This document shows, in pieces, positions 10,891 through 37,463 of a stretch of 64,000 bases of DNA. The position numbers were made by a program, and so were the translations under genes. How positions within the stretch are numbered: the stretch's first letter is position 1; every line of letters begins with the position of its first letter. The notes below the pieces were generated by a model. The model was not told the DNA's origin, did no database searches, and saw only the letters and a list, made by a program, of their open reading frames with translations. This DNA is from Tomocerus qinae (lineage: Eukaryota > Arthropoda > Collembola > Entomobryomorpha > Tomoceridae): NCBI GenBank assembly GCA_020055645.1, contig CM034546.1:132515875-132579874 (forward strand), written 5' to 3'.

Positions 10891-10892
10891 CC

Positions 10893-14771: not shown

Positions 14772-14839
14772 GATGAATGTTGGAGTTGTGCACGCAATGA
14801 GAGCTAAAACTGGAATGACGCTATCCCTACCCTAATCTC

Positions 14840-14847
14840 TAAATATA
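14840..14847 (-). promoter_or_regulatory. TATA-like box of the PolB unit
   Basis: On the minus strand the sequence reads TATATTTA, about 70 bp before the PolB ATG at 14771. It lies just downstream of the protease gene, so the polymerase unit appears to have its own promoter. Confidence 0.4.
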
Positions 14848-14887
14848 CCCTATTCAATAAGAACAACAGTATATGTGTTTTATACAT

Positions 14888-16626: not shown

Positions 16627-16886
16627 TTTGATTTTTTGTTCTTTTTCCCCTTCGCACACTTCTTTTTGTTAGTTTTTCTTTTTCCAAATCCAAACTGGTT
16701 AAGAGTCGGCTGTTTTTTTCCCTTCTTCGCCTTTGTCTGACGTTTAGATCTTTTCTGTCCCCCTCCTACTTGCTTAATGGCACGTTTGGCTCTCTTTTTC
16801 TTCTTTTCAATAGTTTCTTTTCCAATGAAAGGTATTGTATACGACACGGGTTTTAGGCCTAGACCCCCACCGATTTGAACATCCAT
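16623..16886 (-). CDS. lysine-rich core-like protein, 87 aa
   Basis: A short glycine-rich start (MDVQIGGGLGLKP) precedes a tract in which nearly half of residues are Lys or Arg (about 27-87). This composition is that of a DNA-condensing core protein, comparable with adenovirus pX/pVII-type proteins described in adintoviruses. The start is 2 bp after the minor capsid stop, and the end overlaps the major capsid start. The function is inferred from composition and position only. Confidence 0.7.
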   Translation of the reverse strand: MDVQIGGGLGLKPVSYTIPFIGKETIEKKKKRAKRAIKQVGGGQKRSKRQTKAKKGKKQPTLNQFGFGKRKTNKKKCAKGKKNKKSK

Positions 16887-16888
16887 TG

Positions 16889-18016: not shown

Positions 18017-18173
18017 TTTGCACAATTTGTAATTTTTTAATAAGATCTCCAAGTTCTTTTAAAGGTATAGTGCTTCCTCTTCCAGTTATACTTCCGTCAG
18101 GTTCTCTAATATGGATATGATTCTCGGTAGTCCAAATGTTATAGCCACACTTTAGTTTATAAAAGCGACGCAT
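17976..18173 (-). CDS. small Polinton protein, 65 aa, possible PC4-like fold
   Basis: It overlaps the preceding gene by 22 bp and the minor capsid gene by 41 bp, consistent with a real gene in this packed unit. The middle reads HIHIREPDGSIT, then LKELGDLIKKLQ: two strands and a helix, the general plan of PC4-like single-stranded nucleic-acid binding domains. The preceding gene has a similar strand-strand-helix order. This is a weak structural guess; I do not recognise a family. Confidence 0.5.
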   Translation of the reverse strand: MRRFYKLKCGYNIWTTENHIHIREPDGSITGRGSTIPLKELGDLIKKLQIVQNGRLHGSRRQQTV

Positions 18174-18538
18174 TCTTTGTCTATAAGAATGTCACTATCA
18201 AAATAACTTCCGGGAATGTCTTTTCCAAATCTACTCATAAGCTTGTAACCATTAACACCGTTCGATAATCGATAAATGTCTTCTTCGTTTCCAACCAGTT
18301 TATGTTTTGCTAATTTAACCCAAGTTGATCGAGTAAGTGAACAAACTTTTTTAGCAGCATACGGTGTTCGTTTCTTAAGCAATAATTTTATACTGGTCTT
18401 TATATTCCTTAATTCGTCAACATTGAAACATATAGTTCCTGACGTATTTTGTATCCAAACTTTCTCAGATTTTTCTTTAGGATTAGTAATCAAAACTTTA
18501 GTATTGTTTTTAAGAATAGCAATCTTGGATGTTGCCAT
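18152..18538 (-). CDS. small Polinton protein, 128 aa, unknown
   Basis: The ATG at 18538 is the first in frame after the integrase stop at 18548. The N-terminal half (KVWIQNTSGTICFNVDELRNIKTSIKLLLKK, in parts) has the same strand-turn-strand-helix order as the next gene, suggesting an old duplication. The C-terminal half contains Trp and a YRLSNGVNGYKLMSRFG block. It has no catalytic motif and no membrane segment. It lies between the integrase and structural genes. Confidence 0.6.
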   Translation of the reverse strand: MATSKIAILKNNTKVLITNPKEKSEKVWIQNTSGTICFNVDELRNIKTSIKLLLKKRTPYAAKKVCSLTRSTWVKLAKHKLVGNEEDIYRLSNGVNGYKLMSRFGKDIPGSYFDSDILIDKECVAFIN

Positions 18539-18547
18539 GACCAATAG

Positions 18548-19510
18548 CTAAGAGGGAATGTAGCGAGCTAGTTCAGCCTCATAGAAACCTCCCAACAAGT
18601 TTTCTAACGGCAATTCCTTTCCCCTTTTCGACGTACGATGCACAGTCTCTACTAACTCATACGTCGGGGGTTGTGTAGTACGTACTTTAGATATTTTATA
18701 GGGAGTATCCACAAAGTTTTGTTCATATCCTTTTGTAAAAAGGGCCTTTGTTCTAGAAATAAGCACAATGTCCCCTACAGCATATTTAGGTTTACGCTTG
18801 GGTTGCTTTACCAGATGTTCAAACGTATTCTTCCAAACCAGATGTTCATTATTGTCGTTCACATCATTAGGGGCAAACTTGGTTGTGCTATGTTTTGTAT
18901 TGTTGTATCCTTTCAAAAGAAGGGGGAGAGCCTTTATATATTTTCTATTCCCTCTATGGGTCCAGTATCTAGATATACGGGACATTATAGTGCGATGAAA
19001 CCTTTCAACTACACTAGCTTTTATTTCTGAATAGACATGCATCAGCATGATGCCTTCATTGTCTAAATACTTTTTCATCATCTGTCCAACAAATTCTTTT
19101 CCACGATCACTTACTATTGTTCTCGGCTTCCCCAATGCTTTTATGATCAGTTTGATTCCCCTAACAGCTTCAGCTGTCTTCTTTGTCTTTATTGGAACTA
19201 TATGAGCCTTTTTACTAAACACATCTATAGCAGTAAGTAGATATTTATAGCCATTGTTCTCTTTGCTATACTTGGATAAATCCAGTAGATCTATTTGTAT
19301 TTGGTCTCTCCTAAAGTGAACCATAAATTTGCGCCTGGGGAACCTAGACCTTGCAGGCTTGTGTAAAACATAAGGCTTAAGCTTATTCAACTCGGATATA
19401 ACAAACTTTTTGTCCTTCAGCTTTCTATTTTTAATAAAAGCTTCAGCCCCTGAGAAAGATCCAGCAAATAGGGGGTTGAGATACTGACGCTTTATGTTAA
19501 CCGCCATCAT
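18548..19510 (-). CDS. retroviral-type integrase (rve, DDE)
   Basis: 320 residues. The acidic triad is Asp74 (QIDLLDL), Asp135 (IVSDRGKEF) and Glu169 (VVERFHRTI), with the spacing of retroviral and Polinton integrases. After it comes a Tyr/Asn/His block (YNNTKHSTT), then a C-terminal SH3-like region (KYAVGDIVLIS, about 245). It joins element ends to target DNA and makes the 6-bp duplication seen at the borders. It is the first gene of the structural unit and faces the plus-strand unit across a 51-bp gap. Confidence 0.95.
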   Translation of the reverse strand: MMAVNIKRQYLNPLFAGSFSGAEAFIKNRKLKDKKFVISELNKLKPYVLHKPARSRFPRRKFMVHFRRDQIQIDLLDLSKYSKENNGYKYLLTAIDVFSKKAHIVPIKTKKTAEAVRGIKLIIKALGKPRTIVSDRGKEFVGQMMKKYLDNEGIMLMHVYSEIKASVVERFHRTIMSRISRYWTHRGNRKYIKALPLLLKGYNNTKHSTTKFAPNDVNDNNEHLVWKNTFEHLVKQPKRKPKYAVGDIVLISRTKALFTKGYEQNFVDTPYKISKVRTTQPPTYELVETVHRTSKRGKELPLENLLGGFYEAELARYIPS

Positions 19511-19561
19511 TGAGGGATGGAATATAACTGAGGGCCAGTCTAATGATAAAAGTCAAGCAGG
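19511..19561. promoter_or_regulatory. putative bidirectional promoter
   Basis: Only about 50 bp separate the integrase start from the plus-strand reading frame. No sharp TATA box stands out; an AT-rich AATATAACT is near 19522. The true plus-strand start could lie further right, nearer ACAATATATCATTT at 19742, which would enlarge the promoter. Confidence 0.4.
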
Positions 19562-20050
19562 ATGGTAGGGGTTGTTGAGTTCTCCCTTCACCCCAACGGG
19601 CATGTTATAAGCCTATGGTACTCAGACCTCTGCCACCCACTTTTGAGAAGGGAGTTTACGTGTAGTTGCGTAAAGTCAACACATGTACCATGTATTCAAA
19701 ATGTACTATGTAGTAACCACCTCTCATCTACTTTGTACATTACAATATATCATTTAAGTTCTGTTCACCTTAGAGCAAACAACTATAAGGCGATATCTGC
19801 TGAACGAAAACTAACAGTGCGGATAGACGGAAGTCCTATTTGGCGCTTAACTGAGAGATCTCCAGATACCCTCAAACGTAGATTTGAACAACTGATTGAG
19901 AACAATATACTTAATAATGAGTATAATATTGCAGCTATAGGAAGTGCACTTTCCGATATCCTTAAAGAAAGAAAAAAGGAGAGCAGGGAACTTACTACTC
20001 TTGTTGATAGACAATTAGAATCAATGGATTTTGGCCAGTTACATTTATAA
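19562..20050 (+). CDS. Polinton plus-strand protein, start uncertain
   Basis: The frame is open from 19562 (ATG) to 20050, 162 residues. The N-terminal half is Cys/His/Ser-rich and reads poorly as protein. The C-terminal half, from about residue 78 (AERKLTVRIDGSPIWRL onward), is a good charged helical sequence. A potential acceptor (CACCTTAG, ending 19773) suggests the real coding region could be spliced from a short upstream exon that I could not fix. The stop overlaps the next gene as TAATG. I do not recognise the family. Confidence 0.5.
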   Translation: MVGVVEFSLHPNGHVISLWYSDLCHPLLRREFTCSCVKSTHVPCIQNVLCSNHLSSTLYITIYHLSSVHLRANNYKAISAERKLTVRIDGSPIWRLTERSPDTLKRRFEQLIENNILNNEYNIAAIGSALSDILKERKKESRELTTLVDRQLESMDFGQLHL

Positions 20051-20544
20051 TGCCTAATCCTATTCAGTGCAATGGCCCAATAGTGGAAGAGTACGTCACT
20101 CTGCAAAAACGTATCGACAGTTTCGTCAATTGGCCAGTGAATTTTATTAAACCTCTAGACTTGGCACACGCTGGATTTTATCATTTAACTACTAGTAACT
20201 TGTACAGTCGTATCCCAACTAAAGATACAGTGCAGTGCTTCTATTGTGGACTTTGTCTAGGAAATTGGGAAAAAGACGACTGTCCTTTCCTTGAGCATGC
20301 AATTAATACTCCCTATAATGGCTGTTCTTATTTAGTGTTAAATAAACATAAAGTAAAGAACCCCAACACATTGCAACCAGTGGAAGACGACAAGAATATC
20401 TGCAAGGTATGCAAAATTTTTGAAGCACGATATGTTTATCTCCCCTGTGCCCATCTAGTTTGCTGTCCCATCTGTGTTTGCTCCCAATCAAAGTGCCCAG
20501 TGTGTCGGGCCCCTGTAGACTCAATGTTGAAAATTTACATCTAG
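20050..20544 (+). CDS. IAP-like protein with one BIR and a RING finger
   Basis: 164 residues. The BIR spans about 18-97 with zinc ligands Cys63, Cys66, His83 and Cys92; the His-to-Cys gap is eight residues instead of the usual six. The RING spans 118-152 (Cys118, Cys121, Cys133, His135, Cys138 or 139, Cys142, Cys149, Cys152), ending near a KIYI tail. Proteins of this plan bind caspases or their activators and act as ubiquitin ligases; large DNA viruses use them to delay host cell death. The start overlaps the previous stop (TAATG), and one base separates its stop from the next ATG. Confidence 0.9.
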   Translation: MPNPIQCNGPIVEEYVTLQKRIDSFVNWPVNFIKPLDLAHAGFYHLTTSNLYSRIPTKDTVQCFYCGLCLGNWEKDDCPFLEHAINTPYNGCSYLVLNKHKVKNPNTLQPVEDDKNICKVCKIFEARYVYLPCAHLVCCPICVCSQSKCPVCRAPVDSMLKIYI

Positions 20545-20545
20545 G

Positions 20546-20974
20546 ATGTCTACAATTAATGTTTGTAAGATAAAACACCCTAATTACGACGACATTGAAA
20601 TTCGTAAGAATTCTTTTTCTCTTTTGCCAAAAGAACTTAGTAACTGGGTACAGTACGCAAAGGAAGGATTCTTTATAACTGAAGATTTATATATGGTATG
20701 TTTCTATTGTGACTTACCCTTCTTTAACCTTGCGAATATAGACAAGCGATACGATTTGCATAGACAAAAATGTTTATATGCTAAAAGTTATTTAATCAAA
20801 ACCAGTGAAGTTGAAGAACCTAGAAATGGTTGTCATATATGTGTGTCGAGGGAAGTAATCTTTGAATTTCTTCCATGTAGCCACCTTGCTACCTGTGAAA
20901 AGTGTTGCTACAAATTCCATGAGTGTTTTATATGCCGAGGAGACATAAAGGCCGTTAAGATAGTATATATATAA
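20546..20974 (+). CDS. second IAP-like BIR-RING protein
   Basis: 142 residues, probably a diverged duplicate of the preceding gene. BIR ligands are Cys52, Cys55, His72 and Cys76, so the last gap is only three residues. RING ligands are Cys96, Cys99, Cys111, His113, Cys117, Cys120, Cys127 and Cys130, with the same hydrophobic C-terminal end (KIVYI). The BIR helix around residues 20-45 is retained, but the Asp/Glu-rich surface groove is changed, so binding partners may differ. Its stop overlaps the next start (TAATG). Confidence 0.85.
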   Translation: MSTINVCKIKHPNYDDIEIRKNSFSLLPKELSNWVQYAKEGFFITEDLYMVCFYCDLPFFNLANIDKRYDLHRQKCLYAKSYLIKTSEVEEPRNGCHICVSREVIFEFLPCSHLATCEKCCYKFHECFICRGDIKAVKIVYI

Positions 20975-21626
20975 TGACTATCATCACCGAGTTTCAAATA
21001 GTGAAGGACCATGTTTATAGGATGCATATTTTCAGAGACAGTGCTCCTAACAAGCGTAAGTTTTATGCAAGTTGTCGTTGTTTATCAACCTTTCTAGATG
21101 AACGCAAGAGAGGTCAAAAGGCAAGAGAAGCTTGCATTAAAAAAATTATAGACGACGAGTGGAGTTTTTTTAGCCGGGATCCGGTAGTGCTTTGTGTATT
21201 TAAAATAACGGCAGCTGTACTACGTACAGCACTACCTACTCATTTAGTTTGCTCCGTTCAAAAAGACATTGATTGGATTCCCGGAGGAATCATACATAGG
21301 AATTCCTATCCCATCCATGAAAAGTGTGCCTACTGTGAAGACACGGGATTGAACAACTGCGACGACTACCTATCCATCAAGCAAAACGAACACTGGTTGC
21401 AGCTGGGTGAATTAAAACGCCTCCTCACCCAACCCCCCGAAGAACAGGACTGGTACTTTGACTTTCTAGTGAAAGTTTACGCCACAGAGTAAGTTGTTCT
21501 CTCTCTCTCTAAATATTTTCAGGTATTCATTCTTGTTTTGACTTTAGGAAAGTAGAGACTTATCTTAAAAACAACAGAAACATCCCAACTGTTAGTGAAG
21601 CGCACTTCTGCTACTCGGCACCATGA
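20974..21626 (+). CDS. spliced Polinton protein of unknown function, 197 aa
   Basis: Exon 1 is 20974-21488 and exon 2 is 21548-21626; the donor GTAAGT and acceptor TTTAG join in phase 2. The unspliced frame would stop one codon after the donor. The join adds KVETYLKNNRNIP and ends with a TGA that overlaps the next ATG as ATGA, which supports it strongly. The protein has a Cys pair (CAYCEDTGLNNC, about 138-149), Trp residues in its C-terminal third and no membrane segment. I recognise no family. Its place after the two IAP-like genes suggests a host-interaction role (inference). Confidence 0.75.
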
Positions 21627-22415
21627 ACATAACCTTCTACCATAAAAATACGTAAGTTTACATTATACTTTATTCATCTAAGTTATTTACACTGCATATA
21701 TACTTAGGACTATATATATATATATTCTATATATTTCAGCTTTTTCTGTTACGTGTGTCAACATGACCACGTCGAGAACACACATGAAGGCATAGTCTAC
21801 ACCGGGGAAGATGGCCTCCCTAGGTGTTACCGTTGCCACTTCAACAAGATGAAGATGGAGAACTACATGAAGACTGTAACCCCCGACCCTACAGACATGA
21901 AACAGTGGATGCCTGCATACAAAAAGGTCTGCAATTCAAAATATTGTCTACTAAATAAAGTTCCGTTCATGAAAGCCAAAAACGTGAGGTACTACGTATT
22001 TGAAGGAGGGAATCTGGCTTGCGGTTACTGCCTCAACAATATGAGAGAAGATTGGTAAGTTTATATATAGTTGATATATAAAGTAATATGTAATAATGTA
22101 TGTATTGTAGTAATAATATACTATATAATCATACTTTCTCTATATAGGAACGGTCGAATGCAGCATATCCCAGAAGACCTCGTCGGACCCCCTTTGATGT
22201 TAGACGACAAAGAATGGAAAGAATACACTTGGCCTGGAAATGCGTCTCCATCACCATCACCCCCTGGCTCCCCTTTGAGCCACCAGCCATCTGCAGTCAC
22301 CCCACCACGACCGATAGATGTATCCATCCCACAGGCCCCTACAAGACAACGTTATGTTGTCCGTCATAGCAGAGGATACACTAAAGCAGCCCGTAAGCTT
22401 ACTTTCCCATACTAA
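21623..22415 (+). CDS. spliced Cys-rich zinc-binding-like protein, 203 aa
   Basis: Exons 21623-21651, 21740-22054 and 22148-22415 join in frame (GT-AG introns) to 203 residues. The N-terminal half carries paired cysteines: CYVCQHDH, CYRCHFN and CGYC, with further single Cys residues, consistent with zinc ribbons. The C-terminal part is Ser/Pro-rich (SPSPSPPGSPLS) and ends with a basic RRY/HSRG-like tail. The first exon has only nine full codons and starts inside the preceding gene's stop. The function is unknown; a nucleic-acid or ubiquitin-pathway adaptor is possible but unproven. Confidence 0.75.
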
Positions 22416-22438
22416 ATGTAAGCCAGTCAAAAAATTAC

Positions 22439-22473
22439 GCACCTAGGTGTTTTCCATGATTTCCATGTTTTTC
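22439..22473 (+). repeat. inner 35-bp inverted repeat, right copy
   Basis: Perfect inverted match to 9153-9187, starting 24 bp after the stop of the last plus-strand gene. Together the two copies bracket the whole core gene set. Confidence 0.9.
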
Positions 22474-23214
22474 GATGTTTTACGTGGTTTTAGTGTGTTT
22501 TACGATGAATTTTACTACTTTTTTGTAAGATTTTACAACTTTTTTCAACTTTTTTACAAGATGTTTTAACATTTTTTAACTTTTCCACAAGAACTTTTAA
22601 CTTTATTTGTAAAATTAACTAAATATTTTAACATTTGTACATAGAAATTTGACAAGTTTCCTAGAATAGTTATTTACAAAATATTATGTAGTTATTATTA
22701 TATTATAAGTAGTCATATAAACTATAATCGCCTACAAGTTTATTCCTGTTCCCCAACCTAAACGTTTTCCTACCTCACATTACGTCATCCCTGACGTTAT
22801 TGATCGGCGTCCTTTTGTACATCTGCTCTTTCTTCCCCCAAGTAAGGTTAGGAGTATATAAGTTCCATTTATATGTATTTGATGTGTGTGTGAAATAAAG
22901 TAAGTTGTATATAATATAACCCTATATGTGTTTTGCATGAATCCTTAGCATACAAATACACATTAAGTGTAGGGAATATTTACATTGGAAAGATAGGGAA
23001 ACTTTTCAAGCTAGGAACAGTGGGAGAATAGGAGGAAAAGGAACAGCCAATGGGGGAGAGGAGGCCGGGCTTAGTTAGAAGGGAGAGGGTAAGGGACTTG
23101 CATTACTTATACTCATGCATCAAGGGGAGAGACCTCAGTCGGCCATCAGGCTTTGGAGCGAACACATCTCAGTCCACGTCGCTCTGCTTTTCATTTTAGG
23201 AATTGCAGGGTGGA

Positions 23215-24430: not shown

Positions 24431-26144
24431 ACCAACAAAATCTAGATTTAAGCAGGCAAATTAATAAGTAAAATGTCTCACTGTCCATACGTTGAAATAG
24501 TAGTTCCATTTATCAGACCATTTTCATGGTTTCGAGTAGGAATATAAATAATATGAGAAATTTCTCAGTGGAAACATGAAATTATTTGTAGCTTCCCATT
24601 AATTAACGGCCTTATGGATGGGAAATTGAGAAATAGAAAATTCGAGTGTGGAAAATACCAAAAATCCTCAAGAATGCGACACTAATTTCTAACTATCTGA
24701 GATCATGGATATTCTGTTGGACACAGTGGGAGGTGTGATTTATAAAATGGAGAGTAGGGAACTGTATTTTGAAATAACGCTTGCCCTATTAGTTGACTCC
24801 ATTTTTGGTCTATATTCTAAAATAAAACATAGAGCTGATTAGGTAGTCAATTTGTAACAATAACCAACAGCTACTAATCCACCTATATTTTAGTGCCAAA
24901 TTCTGGTAAAAATTTTGTACGAAAATTAAAAAGTACCAATACTAAAAACATTTTTACCATTTTTATTACTTAACACTGATAAAGGGGTAAATAGAATTTT
25001 GTGCACTTACCAGCTAAGTTACTATATCAGCATTCCTCAGTGGTTGACATATTCCATTGGAAACACTGCAGTGTATACCATTTATACCATTATAGTAGAC
25101 CATTGTAGTCAGCCGGCTGGCTAAAATGTAAAAAAGCCGGCTAAAATAAAACACTGTGCATATATTGTAGTTCCTATTTAACTGATATATTTTCTCGGTG
25201 TAATCGGTATCAGCTAGTAGCGTCATAAATAGTTAATACGAAATGAGAGTATGTCATAATCGTAGATGCATAGATTTCACTGACGGTACAAATTCCATGC
25301 TAGTACGGTACCAAAACCACTAATTAATTGTGACAATGAAATGCACACACCCTTTACTTCCCTAGTATCAATACAAAGCTATCAGTTAAGGTAATACTAG
25401 CGGAAGCTAGTTAACAGAATTGTTTTGTCTGTCGTTTTGTCTGTGGACGTCCGTCTGTTTTCCAACTACTAGTCTGTACATGCTGTAATACAGAATTAAT
25501 AATAGTCTTACATGTATTTGTTTAAAAATAATTCTTTTACCATTCCGTCTTGAATTGTCGAATAAACAAGGAACTTATTTAAAAGTACTTCAGTGTCGTT
25601 AACTTTGATAGTTATAAAAGCTGGTTGGAAATTATACTTTATATAAAATGGATTGCAATGCCATACGTATATTGTATTTAATAGCTTTTAATAACTTTCA
25701 GACGAGAAAAGTTTTACCGATGTTAAATAAAGTAAAAATTATCAGCATAATATTATACGTTATGTCCGCGTAAAACTTTCCGGTAGTATTTACTTCTGAA
25801 AACTAAGCCACCGTCGTATGGCTAAATATGGAAGTTCAGGCTAATACCTGTTATTTTATTATCTTTAAGTAGGGAAAATGGAACACCGTGTAAAAGGAAG
25901 TTACCAAACTTTAAATAGTATATAATTTTCCATTTAATACTATATAGTTTAAACCAAAATGCAACCTAGAGGGTCCTCATTTTATAACCGATTGTATCTA
26001 CACCAATGCAGTTCAATTTAATGATTGTCCAACGATTGTGCTTAATGCTGATTGCAAAATAGAAGAAATTTAAATTACACTGTCAGTCAAAATCAATGGT
26101 ATTGGTGATATGCTAGATTAAATATTACAAAACAGGTTTGGAAA
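24431..26144. other. intergenic, nothing recognised
   Basis: AT-rich host DNA without convincing coding potential on either strand. Short open frames lack domain-like sequence. A promoter for the IR gene at 26145 may lie at its right end. Confidence 0.5.
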
Positions 26145-28391
26145 ATGAAATCGGGTAATATTATACTAATGACACTAAGTGTCCATTTCCTGTTTCCGTT
26201 TTCAACTAGTGAATATATTAAGAAGGAATCTGTGGAACATTTTAAAAAACTTTTCTCGACCCTGAAGTCTTCAAATACAAAGAGCATTATATTTCATTAC
26301 GATTATGATAAAGATATTTCATCTACAGAAGTTTCAGCAGTGGAAGACATAAATGCTTTACTGAAATACTTAAATGAAATAAAAACTTCTGTAGAAATCA
26401 TTGTGTCAACTAAAGAATCTCGTAATTTTAGTGCGACTATAAAATTTGTCGTTGCTAGTGGGAGAATCATTGTTCCTCAATTATTTGATATTATATTCCT
26501 GACAATCAAGAATACAAAAAATAGTTTGGCCAACTATGTTGAAAGCCCTGAAAAATATCGATTGAAAAAAACTTTGGAATTCATGAAAAGGCGAAAACAT
26601 TTACTAGTTTTGCACTCTACTGACGACTTCACTGAAAATCAACTATTTTCTTATGGCTCTTTGGCAAAATATAAATATTTACTGCAAATAACTTCTAAAG
26701 GAATATTTAAATGGTGCAATTTTTGTGGACTCAATACATGGACTCGTTTTGCAACAGTTGAAGATATTTTCCAAACAACGAAAAATTTCAACAAGGCTGT
26801 AATGGAAGTTGGGAATGTTGAAGGATTTGAACACGAACAAGTCCGAGGAGGAAGTATTAGAAGTTCTGCAGTATTAGCATTTCAGTTTTCTAAATTTCGA
26901 GAAATTAATCCTGTGGAATTCTATATAGCGATGTATATTGCAGAAGCTTATAATTTGACAGTTATGCCTCGTGTCAAAAAAATTGGAAACCTTGCAATAC
27001 CAGATGTCAGTTTTCGAAATGTTGGATTTAAAATTATAGGTCCAGATATCCCTGATTCAATTCCTTTCTTCTACGGCGAGTCTTATTCAATTGGATTTAT
27101 TTCTCCTCTCACTCACAAAGCAATTCATTGGAAAGGAATTTTGGGGCCATTGAATATCGAAGTTATAATCGGATCAATTTTGTCAGCTTATGCTCTCTGG
27201 ATAACTATTATCACAATCGCTACAGTTGAGAAATACTACTCTAAAAAGACTTCAAAAAACTACATCTCCATTTTCATGGAAACACTTGGACTAGTTTTCC
27301 GTCCACTTCTTGATCAATGTATTGAAAAATGTCCATCGAAGAAACTCTGTTTCCGCCTTTGCTTTCTTCCGTGGTTATTTTATTGTCTTATCATATCTGA
27401 AACCTATCGGGGTGAGTTGGTTAGTTTCATTTTGAAATCTAGTTCCCCACCTTCTCCAGAAACCTTTGAACAGCTTGGCTCTTCAATATCGTCCGTATTC
27501 ACAATATCTTATGATCCCAACATAAAATCGACCCTTTCAAATGCGTTGATAGTTTTAAAGAACGAAAATAGACCTAGGCCTAAATTATACTTTAATCATA
27601 TAATCCAAAAGTTAAATTCGACAAAGGCCATTAGCCGCTCATTGGGAGGAACTTATTTACGGTTTGTGGAAAAGGAAAATGAATACTTTATTGCCGATGC
27701 CCAACTTATTAGCACTATATTAAATGTTGTGAAAATCCAGAGAGGAAATGTCCCATTTAAAAAATCAAGGGAGTCTATTAACAAAGTTTTAAATTGGCAC
27801 ATTAAATACAGTAGCCTGTTTGAATGGCACATTTTCAATATAGCTAAAAGATTCCAAACGTCAGGAATTATTCAGTGGTTAATACAATGGGGAGATAGAA
27901 AACAATCTTACTTAAAGAGCATGGTCATTTTACGTGAATTGCAATTGGGCAATAATTTTAAAGGTTCAATTGATGATAATGATGGAAAGCCACAGGTTTT
28001 GAAAACAGAGCATGTAAAAGTACTGTTCTTTTTATACTTAAGCGGCTTGACTCTCGCTGTGTTTGTTGCAATTCTGGAAAGTTTTTGTTACAATTATTAT
28101 GCTCTGCTACATATACACACTAAGATATTAATTGTCTTTAGCAATCAAAGACCTCTGAAAAATGTCAAACGAATAACCTTGATTAGATATTTAGAGCGAA
28201 TTTTTAACCCCAGAGCTATTACTATTAAATTCTTCAACAGGTTAAAAAATCTAAAATCCTTTCGAAAAACTGATGTGAAAGTGATTAAGAGTTCAAACTA
28301 TAACAATCCTCTCTTTCGCAATGTATGGAAATCACGATTTTTAAAAGTCCACGAAAAAATAATATTATCTGTGAATAAAAACAAAAAATAA
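26145..28391 (+). CDS. divergent ionotropic receptor, subfamily A (copy A1)
   Basis: One exon, 748 residues. A signal-like hydrophobic start (about 1-22) is followed by a variable N-terminal region. Next come a ligand-binding-like S1 segment with VEFYIAMYIAEAYNLTV, M1 (about 338-362, after HWKGILGPL), a pore-loop segment (about 376-392), M3 (LCFLPWLFYCLIISETYRGEL, about 404-428), the S2 part and M4 (about 625-648). This is the plan of ionotropic glutamate-receptor-derived IRs, which form ligand-gated cation channels in chemosensory cells. The usual SYTANLAAF signature after M3 is replaced by SETYRGELVSF, so it is highly diverged. Three relatives lie at 49595, 54308 and 62326. Ligand and expression are unknown. 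Confidence 0.82.
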   Translation: MKSGNIILMTLSVHFLFPFSTSEYIKKESVEHFKKLFSTLKSSNTKSIIFHYDYDKDISSTEVSAVEDINALLKYLNEIKTSVEIIVSTKESRNFSATIKFVVASGRIIVPQLFDIIFLTIKNTKNSLANYVESPEKYRLKKTLEFMKRRKHLLVLHSTDDFTENQLFSYGSLAKYKYLLQITSKGIFKWCNFCGLNTWTRFATVEDIFQTTKNFNKAVMEVGNVEGFEHEQVRGGSIRSSAVLAFQFSKFREINPVEFYIAMYIAEAYNLTVMPRVKKIGNLAIPDVSFRNVGFKIIGPDIPDSIPFFYGESYSIGFISPLTHKAIHWKGILGPLNIEVIIGSILSAYALWITIITIATVEKYYSKKTSKNYISIFMETLGLVFRPLLDQCIEKCPSKKLCFRLCFLPWLFYCLIISETYRGELVSFILKSSSPPSPETFEQLGSSISSVFTISYDPNIKSTLSNALIVLKNENRPRPKLYFNHIIQKLNSTKAISRSLGGTYLRFVEKENEYFIADAQLISTILNVVKIQRGNVPFKKSRESINKVLNWHIKYSSLFEWHIFNIAKRFQTSGIIQWLIQWGDRKQSYLKSMVILRELQLGNNFKGSIDDNDGKPQVLKTEHVKVLFFLYLSGLTLAVFVAILESFCYNYYALLHIHTKILIVFSNQRPLKNVKRITLIRYLERIFNPRAITIKFFNRLKNLKSFRKTDVKVIKSSNYNNPLFRNVWKSRFLKVHEKIILSVNKNKK

Positions 28392-30786
28392 AACGGCAGG
28401 TATTTACTAAGCGTTTGGGTTTAAATAAGTATTGTACAGTCTTTACGTTTAAATATCGTCCATTAAGAATGGAAATAGTAGGGTTCATTTTGGTACAGAA
28501 AATGGCCTATACCTATTGAATGCTTGAGCTTTAATCATCAACATTGAGGGTGAATAGAAGATGATAGTATGCAATCGTACCTTCATGTTTCCATATAATT
28601 ACATATTTAATAATAATTCTGGCATAATTTGGTAAGGAATTGCTTTTTATATGTAACAAAATGAAAATGGAAAATGTTAGGTTTAGTATACAGACTTATT
28701 GTCATGAATAATGTACTAACTAGTAAGTGTAGTTGCTGTGTTTTATACAAGCCATAAAAGTATTGTATTCATAACATATAAGAACACTTTAACTGTTTGG
28801 GTATTAAGTATATAGAAGGACCATAACTAGCATTACAGATATAAGTTTACGTAGTTTGTTATAATAACAAATGGTATCTAAGCTCATGCCAGTGAACTAA
28901 AATAAATATTACTTTATGCGAAACATTTCTGTATGCTTATATATAAGCGACTAAAAACTATCTTATCTATGTATACGATGTAGGAACCTTCGCCACTTGA
29001 CATATTGGTACATGTAGTATTAGATTACAATATTTTTAGAGCACAAGTTATGTTATGTGAATGTGATACAGTTAATGATTCGTCTCAACAACTATTCACA
29101 AGCACAAGCACGCATAAAATAAGCACAGCTAAATTTCACTTTACCCCAAGGATACTGTGTTCCATTTTAGCTGGATTTTTAGCCACCAGGAAAGCTATTT
29201 ATTATATTGCATATTGTAGCCGATTAAATGTGGTCAACGTTGTGCTTCAAGTATATGACATTGACATATACCTACTTTAAATAATAATAAGTTGTTTGAA
29301 TTTCATTCTAGAATGCCAAACCAATATTATATACTTCATTATTATTATATATTTCATTTCAGTTTCCAACTTCCCTATAAGAAAGCACTTTATTGTGAAT
29401 ACTAGTGTACCCATCAAAGAAACTAATCTAGACTAAAAGACCCGTGCGTAAAATAATAGTATTCTGGGCCCATTCTCGACCAAGTTGATCTAAATCTAAA
29501 TGTGCCTCTCGTGTCAAATTATTTAGTAAAAATTATCAAGCATATTTATGTTTAAAATGTGTTTCCTTTTCATTTTCGAACAATAATCGCGTTCTTAAAA
29601 TCTTCATCTTCATCCAGCTACAAAGGAGTAAAAAACATGCAAAAGCAGAATCAAAATTACTCAAGATGATCCAACTCAAAGCAGATAATTTGGTGCATAA
29701 TTGGCCTCTTGAGACTGTAAATTATAAATATACATCGCATACGTGCTTACCCGGTGTGAGTTTAGACGAAGAATCCTTACATGCAATTTGCGACATAGGA
29801 AAATATATTCTTATAGAATGAAAGATAGAACTGTGGTAATGTAAAAGTAAAAATATAGTGATTATTTAATCCCAAGGAAAGCTGTATTATTACTATTACT
29901 TGGGTAGGTATCACAATTGCAGCTAAATTATTCCTCATGCTAACTATTAAGTATATTAGTATAGCAGAAAGGAAATTGATGTATTGTATAACGCAAGCGA
30001 CTTAAATAATAAGGAAAAGTTTACTTTTCATAAGATAAGAACTATTGCGTTAAAGTTGAGTGTTATTAGTTTGTTATAGACGTACATCTAATAAAAATTG
30101 AGCTTTATTTACATTAATATTGTTTCAAGCTTGGGAATTTCATAGTTTCCAATCTAAAATTTTGTAATTTATTAATGTTCTTATCAAATTAAGTTTGTTA
30201 TTTGGTATACAGTTCAATTTCAAAATTGTGAGACTTGTAAACACTTGCAAAAGTTTATATGGTCACTGCTGGTGTATTTCTTTTTGAAATATTGACTGTG
30301 CCTATTGTACTTGGAATATGAGCAGGAATTTGAGAATAGCCTTTCAAAGCATGCAAACGAACATCCAATTCCACACAGGTACTAATACAATAATGAACAC
30401 TTATGAATTGAATAATCAAGTTGCCTTGAACAATCTTCGTATTACTTTTTAATGCTTTTAGGTAAATAAATCTTAGTACCTGCTATGCAAATTAGACAGT
30501 TTTCCTTACATGTTATTTTATAGATAATATTAATTTGTATGTAATTCTTGTTACTGATAGTATTTATAATAGTTTTTAAGAATTATTTTTTATAGAGTGT
30601 CAGTGGTAATAATATTTAGTTTTAGTCCAAAGATACAGTTATTAATTCAAATGTATCCTAACTAAGGTTTATATAACTTATAGCTGACTTAAAATAACTC
30701 TGTTGAACGAGCCACAGAAGGAAGGAAAAGGAATAAAATTAAGCATTATTGCGAGATTCCAAAAAGTGTTTCAGTGAAAGGAATTA
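28392..30786. other. intergenic, nothing recognised
   Basis: AT-rich sequence. No frame shows domain-like composition and I see no element termini. A short potential first exon at 30319 (MSRNLRIAFQSM..., then GTACTA) cannot be tied to a gene. Confidence 0.45.
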
Positions 30787-31161
30787 ATGCCACAAATGGA
30801 GGTTAAAGGTCAGAAATTGACTACGGTGACACCCACCGGGAAGACCAAATTAGAGGAGATCAAGCTCAATCAAGCTCAAGTAAAGGAGGTGATGAACATA
30901 TTGGAGTCGAATATCTCAAAACTATCCGAAACTCAAGTTCAAGCTCAACTCAACTCAAAACTACTTGAGAAGAATCATCCTAATATCGGCCAACCATGTA
31001 GTTGCTGCGATAATGGGTCTAATGAGTTGTACAGGAAGAGAAAATACAGAAAATGCCTCATTACGTTTGGAATCGTTGTTCTAGTACTAACTCCTGTTAT
31101 TATTACTATCGGTCTTTTTATTCAACTGTACTTCTTTGAGCAAACAGCATTTATCCCGTAA
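30787..31161 (+). CDS. small coiled-coil protein with C-terminal membrane anchor, 124 aa
   Basis: The sequence begins MPQMEVKGQKL. Residues about 20-62 form a Gln/Leu-rich helix with coiled-coil spacing (EIKLNQAQVKEVMNILE). A Cys cluster (CSCC, about 71-74) and a basic stretch (RKRKYRK) follow, then one membrane segment (about 92-115) near the C-terminus. The stop codon overlaps an AATAAA. The layout is that of a tail-anchored or single-pass protein with its N-terminus in the cytosol, by the positive-inside rule. The family is unrecognised. It is the nearest plus-strand gene upstream of the CARD-dsRBD gene, 1.5 kb away; any link is speculative. Confidence 0.5.
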   Translation: MPQMEVKGQKLTTVTPTGKTKLEEIKLNQAQVKEVMNILESNISKLSETQVQAQLNSKLLEKNHPNIGQPCSCCDNGSNELYRKRKYRKCLITFGIVVLVLTPVIITIGLFIQLYFFEQTAFIP

Positions 31162-32628
31162 TAAAACATGCATGACATTGTTTTTATTGTAGTGTTTTAT
31201 GTCCATTAATATATACAATTTTTTTTTTATTTCATTGCTTAATTAATTTAAACCTATTTAATATTAACTAATCTTTACTGAATTAATTATGCCATCAAAT
31301 ATTTAATTGTGCCATTTACCTACTAATAGAAAAACTATTACCTAAATTACATTATTACATGAAACATAATAGACCAACCTTCTACTGTTCTTTACTTATC
31401 ACTGTAGTGCTTGCATTATTGCCATTGAGTTTCAAATAAAGAGCTTAAATTTTGACATATACTTGGAATACTGGAATAATTTCAATAATTTACAGTAACC
31501 ATGTAAATTAAGGATTACAAGTTGATTAATTTACGATAGAATTCCACTAAAATGGAATATTTGTCATCAGTAATCTTTAGCCAAGCACATCTTTATATTT
31601 ATACTGTTTGTGCATTTAATAGCCCAGCATCTGATATGCATAGATCATTAAAATATCAATTTAAATTGATATTTTGTGAAATGACATAATCTTACATAGA
31701 AGTTGAGGTCGATATTCCTTTTTTACAGTAAGATCTGATCACCAATGATGACTCCTTTGTTTTAGTGTAAGTAGGTAGGAACCTGCTTAAAGTAAACTTT
31801 TATTTTAACATAGGTGTAGTCTGTGTCTAAAATCATAGCATGCAGTTATGATTTAGAGAAAACAAGTGAAATATATAGACGGTAGGTCTAACCGTCTGTT
31901 AAGTTCTTAGTTGGATTCAAATGTATATAATGCACTGAACAATCTAAATTGAATTTTAAGTATTTCAACTTTATTGCACAATATTAATATTATATTATGC
32001 ATCAACTTTGTCTCATAACTTTCGGAAAAGACTTGTATATTTATATAGGTAGATTGAAACGTAAATAAGGGCAGTAACTGCTATCTCGATTTTTTGTTCG
32101 AGATTTTTTTTAGAATAAAATGCAAGTAAACAATTATTTTGCACCATTTTTTATTACAAGTGTGTAAATGATTGTGTCTAATCGGGTGGATTGGCCTAGA
32201 GTGTCCATGAACTAGATTAACGATCATTACTCTATTCATATGCATCAAGGTGCCTTTTATTTGACTTCCAAGTTAATAAACCCAACCGCATGAAATTGCC
32301 AGAAACGTATATGTTGAGCGTTAATTTGGCATTTCTACCCTTGTAAATAAAAAAGTGCATTACTTTCAAAGTAATAAAAGATCAAGCCCCTCCCAAATCT
32401 CTTTAACATTGGCCATTGTGGTCTCAATTTTTAAAGAGTTTATCTCCTTATCAATTGAAAAGTGTTATAGAAAGTAATAACATAAGCTTTCAATTTGACA
32501 GGACCAATGATAGGGTTGAAAATATTTATCTTTATCTCTGCATTAACAGTCTAGAAGCATCTAAATTGTAATTGAGTTTACATTTTACATTACAATTACA
32601 ACACTGAAAGCAATTCGACCGGTACGAA
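31162..32628. other. intergenic, nothing recognised
   Basis: AT-rich. It holds a short hairpin (AGACGGTAGGTCTAACCGTCT, near 31877) and presumably the promoter of the CARD-dsRBD gene. No coding signal found. Confidence 0.45.
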
Positions 32629-33517
32629 ATGGCTGACGATATTAACAAAATTGTCAAAAAGAATTTGGTTTACTTGACCCAAAGTGTAACTAATATTACT
32701 GAAGTACTAATTTATTTGGTTCAAGACGATGTAATATCTGAACATGAAAGTGAAACGATTGTAAGGACTGAACATGCGTTATTACCATCACTATCATATA
32801 ACTGAATAATAACTTTTCTTATTCTTTCATGTTGATTTAATTTAAATTAATATTTCAGACAAGTAAAGCTACCTCCCTTGAACAAGGACAACAATTGTTC
32901 ACTACTCTATTAAAAAAAGACATGAATTTGAGGTGGAAATCGAAAATATCAAAAATACTGAGAAAGACAAGTAATGAGCATCTTGTGAATAAAATCAACG
33001 AAAGTCTGCCCAAAGAACAACCAAAACCGTCCACATCACAGCCTGCAAAAGGTTAACCAAATAATGTTGATTTGTCTATTTGAACTAACGAAACTTGAAG
33101 AAGTGAAGTCCACGTAAAAATATATGTATAATACTGTAGACAAAAAACCAACCGGGGTCATTGTTGTTAACGACGATGACATCCCTCAAGATCCATTCGG
33201 TCTATTAAACTCCATTTGCAGTAAGCTTAATCTTGGCAGTCCAACGTATGATGTAAGCCTTTAATTTATCTTTTCTACTAATTCAATACGTTTGCATAAA
33301 ATAGAGTTAGGTTCAGAAAAATCGAAAGTTATAAAGCTTTAAACTTTCTTTTTAGGAAAAGGGACCTTCTTCTGACTCAAGTTTTGAGTGTTGCTGCACG
33401 ATAAACAAAGAAATGCAGTCAGAAACGGCTAAAAGTAAAAAGCAAGCCAAACGAAGGGTCGCCTACAAATGGCTTTTAATCTTGAAGGCCAAAAACCCTA
33501 CTTTGGCAAGCATATAA
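32629..33517 (+). CDS. CARD-dsRBD fusion protein, four exons, 199 aa
   Basis: Exons 32629-32760, 32859-33051, 33140-33252 and 33356-33517 join in frame with GT-AG introns of about 90-105 bp. Residues about 1-95 fit a CARD: helical, with DVISEHESETITS, then LEQGQQLFTTLLKKD, and SNEHLVNKI at the last helix. This resembles N-terminal CARDs of initiator caspases and their adaptors. A short acidic/Pro-rich linker follows. Residues about 126-190 fit a double-stranded RNA-binding domain: DPFGLLNSICSKL (helix 1), GSPTYDEKGP (strand and loop), and the helix 2 signature SKKQAKRRVAYKWLLIL with the Lys-Lys-x-x-Lys RNA contacts at about 174-178. The RNA-binding fold is split by intron 3, which explains why it is easily missed. 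The fusion would couple dsRNA binding to death-fold signalling (inference). Both domain calls are by eye. Confidence 0.75.
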
Positions 33518-34899
33518 AAAATTATAAATTTGTCAACCCTTCTAATACTGTATTCGCTTAGATGCATTTATTATATCTGTGTACCCATGTATTTGTAGAT
33601 TTAGGTAGGTAAATTAAATTACAAAATGATTGAGTCAAATCGAAATTGGGAATTTTTTATTTAGAGATGATGTTTTTTGGTATTTACAAATATCAAGTAC
33701 AAATTAAGTAATTTTCAAGATTTTGAAAAGTAATTCAAGATATGTTCGTTGCCGTTTGTTGAAAAGTTTCAGGTGTAAGAACCCCTGACCTTCAATTAAA
33801 ACATTCAGTTTTCAATATGTAATTAGAGAATGAATTTGGTAATTAATAAAACTTCCAATTGTAAGGATTTGTCATATCTGATTTTAAGAAAACTAAACAA
33901 AGACAATTAATAAATTGACAAGCAAAGGCCATAATTATTATTAACTTTGACTTACATTACATTTCCGTATTTGTAATCTGGAAAACTATACATGGTAGAC
34001 CCTGCATATTTCCTTTCACTTGGCTGTTTGATGAAACAAGTAAACTGTAATAAGTATAAAAGATTGTCAATCTTGAATATGTATATACTATTGCAATGGT
34101 ATATTATAAAGGTGATCATGCGTCATGCACTATCAGGTAGAAGATTGGACATTCAATATTATCTGTAAAGTTCAGTTTAAAGTGTCTTTTTGTATTTATA
34201 CTTGGCAACTATCATCAATTGCTCTTCGGAAAACCAAACCAGATGACAACTTGAGTTTTTGCTATTCGTACAAAAGGGAAAAATGAGATGCAATTTATTG
34301 AGTAAAGGAAGTAGAGGCTTTCCTGGAGAGATGTACATAATATAAATTCAAGTAGTCATGCATTGTATCGAAAAGAGGTGACACATTCTCCTTCGTATTC
34401 AATTGACATCCTTATAAAGGAGTAAATCAGGAGATAAATCTAATTTCGGTTAAGTGAGATCGACGTCACTCCGGTAAGCAAAGAAGAATTATCCCGAATC
34501 ATAAGACGTGACAAGGCAGATTGGCCATCTCTAATTCTGCATGGTATAGCAGAACAACTTTGTCGTACTTGCCGATAGTCTCCACGTGTCTGATATATCG
34601 AATTTCTAGTTTTAAAAAATGTACGCTTTGGACGATGACTTTATAAGGTACTAATAATAATATACTAAGCTGACGAAGGTTATTCCTTTGAAAAATATAT
34701 TTACATGTTAAGACTGTTTACCGACGACCGAATTCAATGCTATATTATGTGTGTTGTGTATGACTTGTGTAATACATTGTGCTGCGTGTTATCCTTTTGT
34801 TTTTCTACTATAGTGTGTTGTAAAAACGCTTTGATGTGCTGCTTTTGACTTTTCAGCCCATGCAGTCACAAGCCTGAGTGAGCGGTCTACAGGCAGAAA
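33518..34899. other. intergenic, mostly featureless
   Basis: No gene recognised. A 42-codon open stretch at about 34444-34575 (SKEELSRIIRRDKADWPSLI in its middle) has protein-like composition and could be an isolated exon, but nothing joins to it. An AATAAA near 33845 may serve the CARD-dsRBD gene. Confidence 0.4.
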
Positions 34900-34907
34900 G
34901 TGGAAGC

Positions 34908-35092
34908 CAAGCACGTATCCAGAGGGGTGGCCGGTGGGGCCCGGGCCCCCCCTAAATTTTCAGAAAAAGACGATTTTTTTGTCAAAAAAGGTTAAAAATC
35001 CAAAAAATTTTCGCGCTTCGCGCGAATATGTCTTTATTTTACCAATTAATTTTGGTGCCCCCCCCTTGGTCAAATTCCTGGATACGTGCTTG
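34908..35092. mobile_element. hAT-like MITE, 185 bp
   Basis: Ends CAAGCACGTATCCAG and CTGGATACGTGCTTG form a perfect 15-bp terminal inverted repeat. GTGGAAGC is duplicated at 34900-34907 and 35093-35100. An 8-bp duplication is the hAT hallmark. The interior has a GGGGCCCGGGCCCCCCC tract and a CGCGCTTCGCGCG palindrome. No coding capacity. Confidence 0.85.
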
Positions 35093-35100
35093 GTGGAAGC

Positions 35101-35591
35101 GGAACTCTTTAGAGCTGTAGGGTGTAAATGTATTACGACTTTGTCGCTGTTGACAACTTGACAAAACATATCTACAAGTTCTTGGTGGGTGTGGTTGTGA
35201 AACACATTATGACGGTATGTAAATGTAGAATTACTACCAACATGACAGAGGCCTCAAACTAGTTGAAACCCAAGTAGTAATTGCACTATTGACGAGGTTA
35301 AACTACAAAATTGTTTTACATTAAAACTGATCTTGTTTCATAAAACAAATAGGTAGGTTACTGTTAGGAGCTTACTTAGAACGTGGATACAGCAAATCAT
35401 TACCTAATAATATTATACTTCAATCAAGTGTGCGTTTTGTGAGTTTGGAATACGATATAAGGATCGGGTAGTTCGATAACCAATAAGTTGAAATTATTTA
35501 ACAGTAACATAAAATTTGCCTGCTAAACAGTAATAGAAATGACTTCGTTTTCAATTCTTCCCAACCGTAAACTGAGCATGTGGTTTCAAAA
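35101..35591. other. intergenic upstream of IR copy B1
   Basis: No coding signal. It presumably contains the promoter of the receptor at 35592. Confidence 0.4.
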
Positions 35592-37463
35592 ATGAATTTT
35601 AATAGATTTTGCTACCCACTTTATTTATTTTTAGTTTTGTCTGTTCTTAAAACCACCAACGGCATCCGAAATTTGTCATTTTACAAAAATTGTGATTTCA
35701 ATTTGATCAGATTTAAGAATTCTGCATGGGAGACGAAGTTTTTGTTGTCCAATCAAAATTTCCAGCCATGGACCGTGGTTTCATTCGACTATGATTTATG
35801 GAAATTTGGTAGACATGAGGAAAATCCAAATGATTTATCTAAAAATTTGTGTACGGTCAACATTCTTATGGAACCTCATATTTGGCCTACGGCATTGATA
35901 ATACCATTTTTTGGAAAAGAGAGTTACCGACATTCTTCCATATTCATATTAGTATACGAAAGAAGGAATGCCGAAATCAAGAAACAAAAATGGCAAAAAT
36001 ATCTCAAGTATGAGCTATCCAGTCCACTTTTTGTTTTGGCCATCGATAATGAAACTCATGATTCAGTAGTGACTGGCCGTTTGTACAAACGGAGAAGATT
36101 TGTTGCAGACACAGAAATCGAGGATGAATATTGGGAAAGAGTTTGGTACTCTCTAAATGGAAATCTGAATGGAGTAAATATTGGTGGGATTTCTATTAGT
36201 TTTCCTTCTCCACATTTTTCTCCAAGTTGGCCGGGATGTAAAAAAGATTTTTATTCTGCTATGAATAAAGGAGGACTTTGTCCCCCAGAATTCAGAGCGG
36301 TGGAAGAAATGGCTAACAGATTAAATTTTACTGCGATTTATGCAAGACAAGAAAACGTTTTAGAAGCAAAAAAACTATGTGGAGAGATTTACATGTTGGC
36401 AAATTATGTGCCCACATACTTTTACCATTGGTCAGAAACGAAATTCATTGAATACTTTGAAGAACTGACTCCTTTCTATTGTGAGCCATCCCCGAATTTC
36501 CGTGATGTGAGTTTATCCGTGTTGATTCAGAATACATTTGATGATCATTGCTGGCTTCTCATCTTTTCTCTTTTCCCACTCTCATTTCTAGTTTTGGTTT
36601 TCGGGTCGACGAATTCCTCTCCAGCCAAGAAAGTAGAATGGATATTGATCTCCTTGACAGCTGTTCTTCTAGACCAGGGGGTTGTTTATAGTAGAAGGAG
36701 GAGTCTGTTCTTGGTAGTAGCAACCACGGGATTCGCTATCACTACACTCTATGGAACGTGGATAACTAGCGAAATCATTGCACCCCCAGACAAGAAAATA
36801 TTCAAAGATTTCAAGGAACTCGTGGATAATGACTACAAGCTACTATTGGAGAAAGACAAACGAGTCAATCAAGATGATGACCGAACAAAATTATTCGCTA
36901 AATACAAAATGTTGAAAAAGATGAATTCAAGTGTTTACATATATGACTGGCAAATAGAAAATCCAAACGTAGGCATCAATTTACAAATGAAGTACAAATT
37001 GTTGACTAACTATTCCATGAAATTATTTTACGTTGCTACGAAACAAGCTGCTCAATATTTTGTACCTAGGATACCAAAGATATTATTAGTTGATGGACAA
37101 TGTATGACAGTCAAGGACACTGCCTACAAGGAACCACAGTCTTATAAATTTCGAGGCTGCTACCGTCACAATTTCCAAGCATATTTTCAACACATGCTAG
37201 AGAAAGGACTTTTACATTTTTGGAAGCATCAAAGAGAATATGTTGGACATTTGTCAAATAAACAATCAAATTCAAGAATGAAGTATGAAGACAGTCTACC
37301 TGTGGGAATCAACTTAGGGATGAAACTCCACACAATTTTTTATTTATGTGGATACTTCCTTCTAGGTTCTTTACTCTCATTTTGTTTCGAATTGTTTTAT
37401 GACAAAATATTTTCTGTGCTTTCGATCCCTAATTGTTTTCAATGCATCTCCGTATTCCATTAG
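35592..37463 (+). CDS. divergent ionotropic receptor, subfamily B (copy B1)
   Basis: One exon, 623 residues from the ATG at 35592; the frame is open slightly upstream but only with GTG. A signal peptide (about 1-24, ending TTNG) is followed by a Cys-containing N-terminal region. M1 (DDHCWLLIFSLFPLSFLVLVFG, about 315-338), a pore-like loop (EWILISLTAVLLDQG), M3 (about 371-393, then TSEIIAPPDKK) and M4 (about 576-600) follow. It differs strongly from the subfamily A genes here but has the same IR topology. Its close relative is at 58773. An AATAAA lies about 90 bp downstream. A chemosensory or other ligand-gated channel role is inferred from family. Confidence 0.82.
   Translation: MNFNRFCYPLYLFLVLSVLKTTNGIRNLSFYKNCDFNLIRFKNSAWETKFLLSNQNFQPWTVVSFDYDLWKFGRHEENPNDLSKNLCTVNILMEPHIWPTALIIPFFGKESYRHSSIFILVYERRNAEIKKQKWQKYLKYELSSPLFVLAIDNETHDSVVTGRLYKRRRFVADTEIEDEYWERVWYSLNGNLNGVNIGGISISFPSPHFSPSWPGCKKDFYSAMNKGGLCPPEFRAVEEMANRLNFTAIYARQENVLEAKKLCGEIYMLANYVPTYFYHWSETKFIEYFEELTPFYCEPSPNFRDVSLSVLIQNTFDDHCWLLIFSLFPLSFLVLVFGSTNSSPAKKVEWILISLTAVLLDQGVVYSRRRSLFLVVATTGFAITTLYGTWITSEIIAPPDKKIFKDFKELVDNDYKLLLEKDKRVNQDDDRTKLFAKYKMLKKMNSSVYIYDWQIENPNVGINLQMKYKLLTNYSMKLFYVATKQAAQYFVPRIPKILLVDGQCMTVKDTAYKEPQSYKFRGCYRHNFQAYFQHMLEKGLLHFWKHQREYVGHLSNKQSNSRMKYEDSLPVGINLGMKLHTIFYLCGYFLLGSLLSFCFELFYDKIFSVLSIPNCFQCISVFH

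Follow-up and report, generated by a model that had tools for sequence, protein, structure and literature searches.

A four-exon gene of the collembolan Tomocerus qinae predicted to join a CARD to a double-stranded RNA-binding domain, and a paralogue predicted to add an NLR-like NTPase

The question raised by this locus is whether an arthropod can couple double-stranded RNA (dsRNA) to CARD signalling within one small protein. Arthropods are thought to counter viral dsRNA mainly via RNAi, and to our knowledge a vertebrate-like CARD-based dsRNA pathway has not been established in them. The window analysed here, a stretch of 64,000 nucleotides from Tomocerus qinae (contig CM034546.1), contains a gene that a preliminary description took to encode a CARD fused to a double-stranded RNA-binding domain (dsRBD).

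Our analysis shows a genuine four-exon gene, predicted from its sequence to encode a 199-residue CARD-linker-dsRBD protein. The exons lie on the forward strand and join in frame as first described (32629-32760, 32859-33051, 33140-33252 and 33356-33517, stop included), and the introns of 98, 88 and 103 bp are all GT-AG, with phases 0, 1 and 0; GC content is 29.5-41.6% in the exons and 24.5-28.4% in the introns. Exon 1 carries the start codon and the first half of the CARD (residues 1-44) and is followed by intron 1 (32761-32858, GTAAGG...CAG), while exon 2 holds the second half of the CARD and the start of the linker. Intron 2 (33052-33139) has a weak donor, GTTAAC, with a TAA at 33054-33056. 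The end of the linker and the first part of the dsRBD lie in exon 3, and exon 4 encodes the remaining dsRBD, with a GPSS loop and the motif SKKQAKRR, up to the stop; the intron that was said to split the dsRBD is real and is intron 3 (33253-33355). The ATG at 32629 stands in the context GAAATGG and is preceded by an in-frame stop at 32605-32607. We rejected the idea that the CARD exon is an internal exon, as the sole AG between that stop and the ATG scores -1.2 as an acceptor, compared with 12.4 for the acceptor of the linker exon in the paralogue described below.

Both domains are called by Pfam above their curated cut-offs, at the places first proposed for them (about residues 1-95 and 126-190). 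The CARD (PF00619) matches at residues 7-90 (32647-32996, across intron 1) with 37.9 bits against a cut-off of 23.9 (E 1.8e-9) and covers positions 2-82 of the 85 in the model, and the dsRBD (dsrm, PF00035) matches at residues 128-187 (33196-33478, across intron 3) with 33.9 bits against a cut-off of 23 (E 4.9e-8) and covers positions 2-64 of 66. CARD_2, the RIG-I-type CARD, stays below its cut-off. In the 199 residues Pfam found no NB-ARC or NACHT NTPase, no DExD/H helicase or RIG-I C-terminal domain and no Peptidase_C14, and HEPN is absent from its four matches. NCBIfam returned four matches, none above cut-off (the best being a seadornavirus dsRNA-binding protein model, with 23.2 bits versus 125), and Rfam returned 0 matches for the window.

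When open models were enumerated from ATG 32629 with scored splice sites, the longest of the 3817 was the reported one. It does not rank first by summed splice-site score, a sum that grows with each added intron, and in the 15 models that score best by this measure the dsRBD end is replaced or the CARD or helix 1 of the dsRBD is partly lost. Support for the junctions comes from the gain in domain score when exons are joined: with Pfam run on the pieces, the CARD reaches 24.3 bits from exon 1 alone, nothing from exon 2 alone and 40.5 bits from both, and dsrm reaches 31.1 bits from exon 4 alone, no match from exon 3 alone and 35.4 bits from both. Rival donors lower the scores, to 13.5 bits for the CARD with a donor at 32731 and to 18.5 bits for dsrm with a donor at 33435. 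For the acceptor of intron 3 the preference for 33355 is mild, since an alternative two codons downstream, at 33361, still leaves dsrm at 31.0 bits; this junction thus depends on the splice score (10.1 versus 5.6) and on the paralogue. The codon usage resembles that of the receptor-type frames of the window, at the low end of their range, and 16 of 20000 noncoding composites scored as high.

If intron 2 were retained, translation would stop after PAKG and give a 109-residue CARD-only product, and since the GTTAAC donor and the TAA are also present in the paralogue, a CARD-only isoform is possible. The same TAA, directly after exon 2, and an in-frame ATG at 33124 ahead of the dsRBD frame could also be taken as signs of two neighbouring genes, one CARD-only and one dsRBD-only, or of a wrong gene model. 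We consider this very unlikely: the gap between exons 2 and 3 is only 88 bp, joining the exons raises the domain scores, and the arrangement and splice positions are kept in the paralogue across a synonymous divergence of 0.54-0.57.

That second copy was found by a search of the species' own 334-Mb assembly with the window protein, in which the best 150 of 276 candidates were scored, so that all counts from it are lower bounds. One other place with all four exons is present among the matches listed, at C1:79624601-79625546 on the minus strand (locus L016). It shares the four exons, the three intron positions, the weak GTTAAC donor and the following TAA, and 163 of 197 aligned residues are identical; DNA identity is 87, 83, 78 and 90% in the exons and 54, 64 and 66% in the introns. 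Comparison of window positions 30600-35600 with the DNA of L016 gave one strong match (32638-33519, E 8e-170) and six others of 13-33 bases at E 0.01 or more. Over 197 codons, dN is 0.095 and dS 0.57, and dN/dS is 0.166 by NG86 and 0.174 by YN00, with a bootstrap range of 0.10-0.26 and 0 of 300 bootstraps at or above 1. By part, dN/dS is 0.197 for the CARD, 0.121 for the linker and 0.098, the lowest value, for the dsRBD. That the pairwise bootstrap range lies below 0.5 speaks against either copy having been a pseudogene since they diverged, and CARD changes polarised by a third relative (locus L026) fall on both copies (7 on the window gene, 4 on the paralogue and 4 unclear); on these grounds a pseudogene was rejected. 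The shared exon structure together with a dN/dS of 0.17 is the decisive evidence for a real gene model.

The surroundings of the pair differ in the paralogue, where the CARD exon has no start codon and opens at a strong acceptor. Upstream of it lies a 303-residue frame with an NTPase that matches AAA_22, NB-ARC and NACHT above their Pfam cut-offs, and an exon upstream of the NTPase resembles the first half of a CARD. Joined, the predicted six-exon paralogue would encode 528 residues in the order CARD-like, NTPase, CARD and dsRBD, and this model scores above cut-off for NB-ARC (33.7 bits), CARD (29.6), NACHT (27.7) and dsrm (27.8). Pfam called 0 families in the N-terminal part, and its CARD-like identity is our own reading. 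A search of the window with the paralogue NTPase gave only two weak matches, at E 0.04 and 0.29, a second reason for rejecting the window CARD exon as an internal one.

The third relative, L026, lies about 7 kb upstream of the paralogue and has an NTPase, the same linker and a CARD that scores 17.5 bits, under the cut-off. The donor of the NTPase exon (AAG/GTTA) and the linker acceptor of the paralogue are also found there. A frame change in its NTPase suggests that L026 is perhaps a pseudogene, and neither its 3.2 kb nor the neighbouring L030 yielded a clear dsRBD exon (best E 0.047). If L026 is taken as the outgroup, the simplest explanation of the stand-alone window gene is a 5'-truncated duplicate of the long form, which would have been left without the N-terminal half and have acquired a new start. 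A long frame with a hydrophobic end (L026:3-887 and L030:4072-4401, both minus strand; GHVSVEI...YISLWP) was also observed downstream of the third CARD; it has no Pfam match and is perhaps another C-terminal domain of the same receptor family.

The CARD itself probably comes from the genome's own expanded CARD/CARD-NB-ARC family. At least 72 matches at E<=0.001 were found, 59 of which (hand count) start at query residue 9 or earlier and hence represent the CARD first exon; these 59 include the two CARD-dsRBD genes and two matches on contig C45, whose scores equal those of places on C1 and which may therefore be repeats. The window CARD is 50% identical to that of L026 and 34-42% identical to four other CARDs of the genome (with the exons of L023 and L025 joined by eye). 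NB-ARC is called by Pfam at the CARD loci L002, L003/L007 and L006, and a P-loop NTPase was recognised by eye at L023, L024 and L025; a weak look recognised no second exon at L020, L022, L027 and L028. At L002 and L003 a phase-0 intron after the ETI/DII position is shared, by eye, with the window CARD, where it is intron 1. A profile built from seven CARDs of this genome matched the solved structures of CARD8 (3.3e-7) and cIAP1 (6.1e-7) and also those of RAIDD, MDA5, Apaf-1 and CED-3. Loci L002-L007 form a CARD-NB-ARC gene cluster (C1:70.66-70.69 Mb) in which one frame ends in a hydrophobic stretch resembling a membrane anchor, and where two CARD exon pairs stand in tandem at one place, the first of them ending early. 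Three further CARD first-exon matches, at C1:132340245, 132489276 and 132625851 (E 8.9e-5, 0.03 and 2.0e-5), lie within about 180 kb of the window, which may thus be part of a CARD-rich stretch.

For the dsRBD, the nearest relatives in the genome are found in multi-dsRBD genes (L018, L019, L021 and L029). In L018 the two dsRBDs align with Loquacious from end to end (E 6.2e-18) and also along TARBP2 (E 6.2e-8), and the other three loci were assigned as Loquacious/TARBP2-like by their similarity to L018. The single dsrm stretch of the window protein, as opposed to two in L018, is 53, 52, 51 and 45% identical to dsRBD2 of these four loci. In all four an exon ends at the same place, with the donor GTAAGA or GTACGA, and the acceptor position of intron 3 is shared by L018, L019 and L029; for L021 only the donor position could be read. 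The exon after this intron reads EKDRVGPxH in L018 and L019 versus EKGPSS in the window gene. The sequence similarity and the two shared intron positions are the reason why we regard the family as a CARD joined to dsRBD2 of a Loquacious/TARBP2-like gene, from which the window dsRBD would derive. The number of such genes is an observation in its own right: at least four loci (L018, L019 and L021 at 9.89-10.03 Mb and L029 at 13.04 Mb) are present here, and insects usually have one or two.

These relationships also bear on the comparison with RIG-I and PKR that was made at the outset. Kinship with these two as first choice was rejected on the domain and structure-profile matches, in which MDA5 CARDs and a PKR dsRBD are among the weaker hits; for the window dsRBD alone the nearest solved domains are those of R2D2 and TARBP2, weakly (E 0.005-0.007). 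By the kinship of its CARD and dsRBD, the protein is closer to an RNAi cofactor domain placed on an NLR-type CARD.

Three elements of a dsRBD presumably make contact with RNA: the acidic residue of helix 1, the GPxH loop and the KKxAK patch, which contacts the phosphate backbone. KKxAK is kept in seven of seven aligned sequences and is identical (KKQAK) in the window gene and the paralogue. In both copies the histidine of GPxH is replaced by Ser (GPSS/GPFS), the acidic position of helix 1 is Ser and beta 1 is three residues short; the four Loquacious/TARBP2-like dsRBD2s of the same genome retain GPPH or GPQH and the full length. With the contact residues partly lost, the domain may bind dsRNA with altered strength or dock on an RNAi partner, and as the most constrained part of the protein it is likely to have some function. 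It could have ceased to bind RNA well and serve as a protein-protein module, as the third dsRBDs of TARBP2 and Loquacious are, and would then tie CARD signalling to Dicer/Loquacious-like complexes and not directly to RNA. We give this a limited but real likelihood: the GPxH histidine, the helix-1 acidic residue and the three beta-1 residues are lost in both copies of a domain that nevertheless has the lowest dN/dS, but retention of the KKxAK patch in every aligned sequence speaks against it.

What the CARD could act upon is suggested by the rest of the genome. At least 38 exon-level Peptidase_C14 matches suggest that the caspase family is expanded. Of six caspase loci examined, L032 has an upstream CARD exon, which at 24.0 bits is just over the cut-off of 23.9. 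Because the genome has both CARD-NTPases and caspases, one of them CARD-bearing, we chose the reading that the window protein is a dsRNA-to-CARD adaptor that works alongside an NLR-like receptor sharing its sensing end, and we put its probability at about 0.5. Long or viral dsRNA would be bound by the dsRBD, either unaided or together with an RNAi dsRBD cofactor; several CARD-dsRBD molecules on one RNA would bring their CARDs together, and the clustered CARDs would recruit CARD-NTPases or a CARD initiator caspase. Against this adaptor stand the partial retention of the RNA-contact residues, the E value of only 0.005 for the nearest solved dsRBDs, and the fact that the N-terminal "CARD" of the paralogue is uncalled by Pfam within a six-exon model that is itself predicted. 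The earlier label of a compact antiviral sensor is accordingly plausible in part, with the qualification that two of the three RNA-contact elements are changed and that a regulator or inhibitor of the NTPase-bearing paralogue would be equally possible.

Such a regulator or decoy would be a CARD-dsRBD on its own, competing with the paralogue or tuning it, much as mammalian CARD-only proteins tune caspase-1, and sequence alone does not separate it from an adaptor. The absence of the NTPase from the window gene, the CARD-only product expected from intron-2 retention with its TAA in both copies, and the structure of L026 (NTPase, linker and CARD with no clear dsRBD exon), which suggests that the long form came first, would all agree with it. 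A pure CARD decoy, however, needs no dsRBD with a dN/dS below that of its CARD, and we consider this role for the stand-alone protein rather unlikely.

Among known systems, the Dicer cofactors Loquacious, TARBP2 and R2D2 represent the probable source of the window dsRBD, with the intron shared with L018, L019 and L029. Each of them has two or more dsRBDs, and we know of no CARD on any of them; the window protein, in contrast, lacks tandem dsRBDs and has a CARD. The CARD-NB-ARC (Apaf-1/NLR-like) genes of the same genome have a related CARD, with the intron shared with L002 and L003; the window gene differs from them by having no NTPase and by adding a dsRBD, and the paralogue has a STAND NTPase. 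The claim that no described protein pairs these two domains needs qualifying. Oyster caspases Cg3C-like A and B carry two DSRM domains, and virus detection was suggested by the authors (PMC7836458); they likewise place a dsRNA-binding domain on the cell-death machinery, but combine a caspase with two dsRBDs, with no CARD described in the available part of that report, whereas the window protein pairs its CARD with a single dsRBD and lacks a protease. CXorf38-type HEPN proteins are fused to dsRBD, NACHT, CARD and DEATH domains, and the available text names vertebrates, cephalochordates, hemichordates and cnidarians as carriers (PMC3710099). That family, as far as it is described there, similarly brings together a dsRBD, a STAND NTPase and death-fold domains, and differs from the window protein, which has no HEPN match. 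Caenorhabditis elegans DRH-1 signals by predicted CARDs (PMC11260149), and RIG-I-like receptors, DRH-1 included, follow the same logic of a dsRNA end and a CARD end; the window protein is unlike them in lacking the helicase and the C-terminal RNA-sensing domain and in having a PF00619 CARD with CARD_2 below cut-off.

A CARD-dsRBD protein was not found in our literature search, which covered titles and the openings of abstracts and few subscription papers, and the term dsRNA was not found in PMC2575513. A search of 5.8 billion predicted proteins gave 139 candidates, none at E<=10. Exon-by-exon searches detect the pieces and not the combination, so CARD-dsRBD proteins may have been missed elsewhere.

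The second CARD-dsRBD copy, next to an NLR-like module, suggests that RNA recognition may be wired into CARD signalling. Going further, an arthropod lineage might have rebuilt RNA sensing of the RIG-I/MAVS or inflammasome type by attaching a Loquacious-like dsRBD2 to an NLR-like STAND receptor at its CARD end. The outcome would be an NLR that senses dsRNA directly and, after a partial duplication, a CARD-dsRBD that acts separately as a co-sensor; we offer this as a tentative proposal that is less likely to be true than not. If true, RNAi and caspase/NLR immunity meet in one protein family. The conserved pair, which occurs both on its own and attached to an NLR-like NTPase, is a concrete and testable candidate for a CARD-based dsRNA pathway, in which the binding domain would be of the same kind as in the RNAi machinery.

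About 10 kb upstream of the gene, at 9144-22482, the window contains a Maverick/Polinton-like element with 44-bp terminal inverted repeats that are 95% complementary. It has a polymerase-like long frame (10896-14654, by eye) and an integrase core (18551-19552, rve). The opposite strand carries two genes, one with BIR and RING (20011-20541) and one with RING and a BIR match below threshold (20531-20971), which places IAP-type genes within a mobile element 10 kb away from a CARD gene. An element with such genes could in principle have brought in the CARD-dsRBD gene, which would then be of viral or mobile origin, but the gene sits beyond the terminal repeats and is interrupted by three introns, two of which (introns 1 and 3) recur in host CARD and dsRBD genes. 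Both domains have close relatives in the host genome, and no match was found in viral contigs (6 stretches, none confirmed) or phage records. We regard this origin as extremely improbable.

The window also contains six long single-exon frames (26109-28388, 35571-37460, 49598-51925, 54311-56281, 58707-60611 and 62329-63999) that by eye look like divergent ionotropic receptors; of the two that were scanned, one gave Lig_chan below cut-off and the other nothing. A small frame at 30778-31158, 1.5 kb upstream of the CARD-dsRBD gene and on the same strand, ends in a hydrophobic C-terminal stretch and matches synaptobrevin below threshold.
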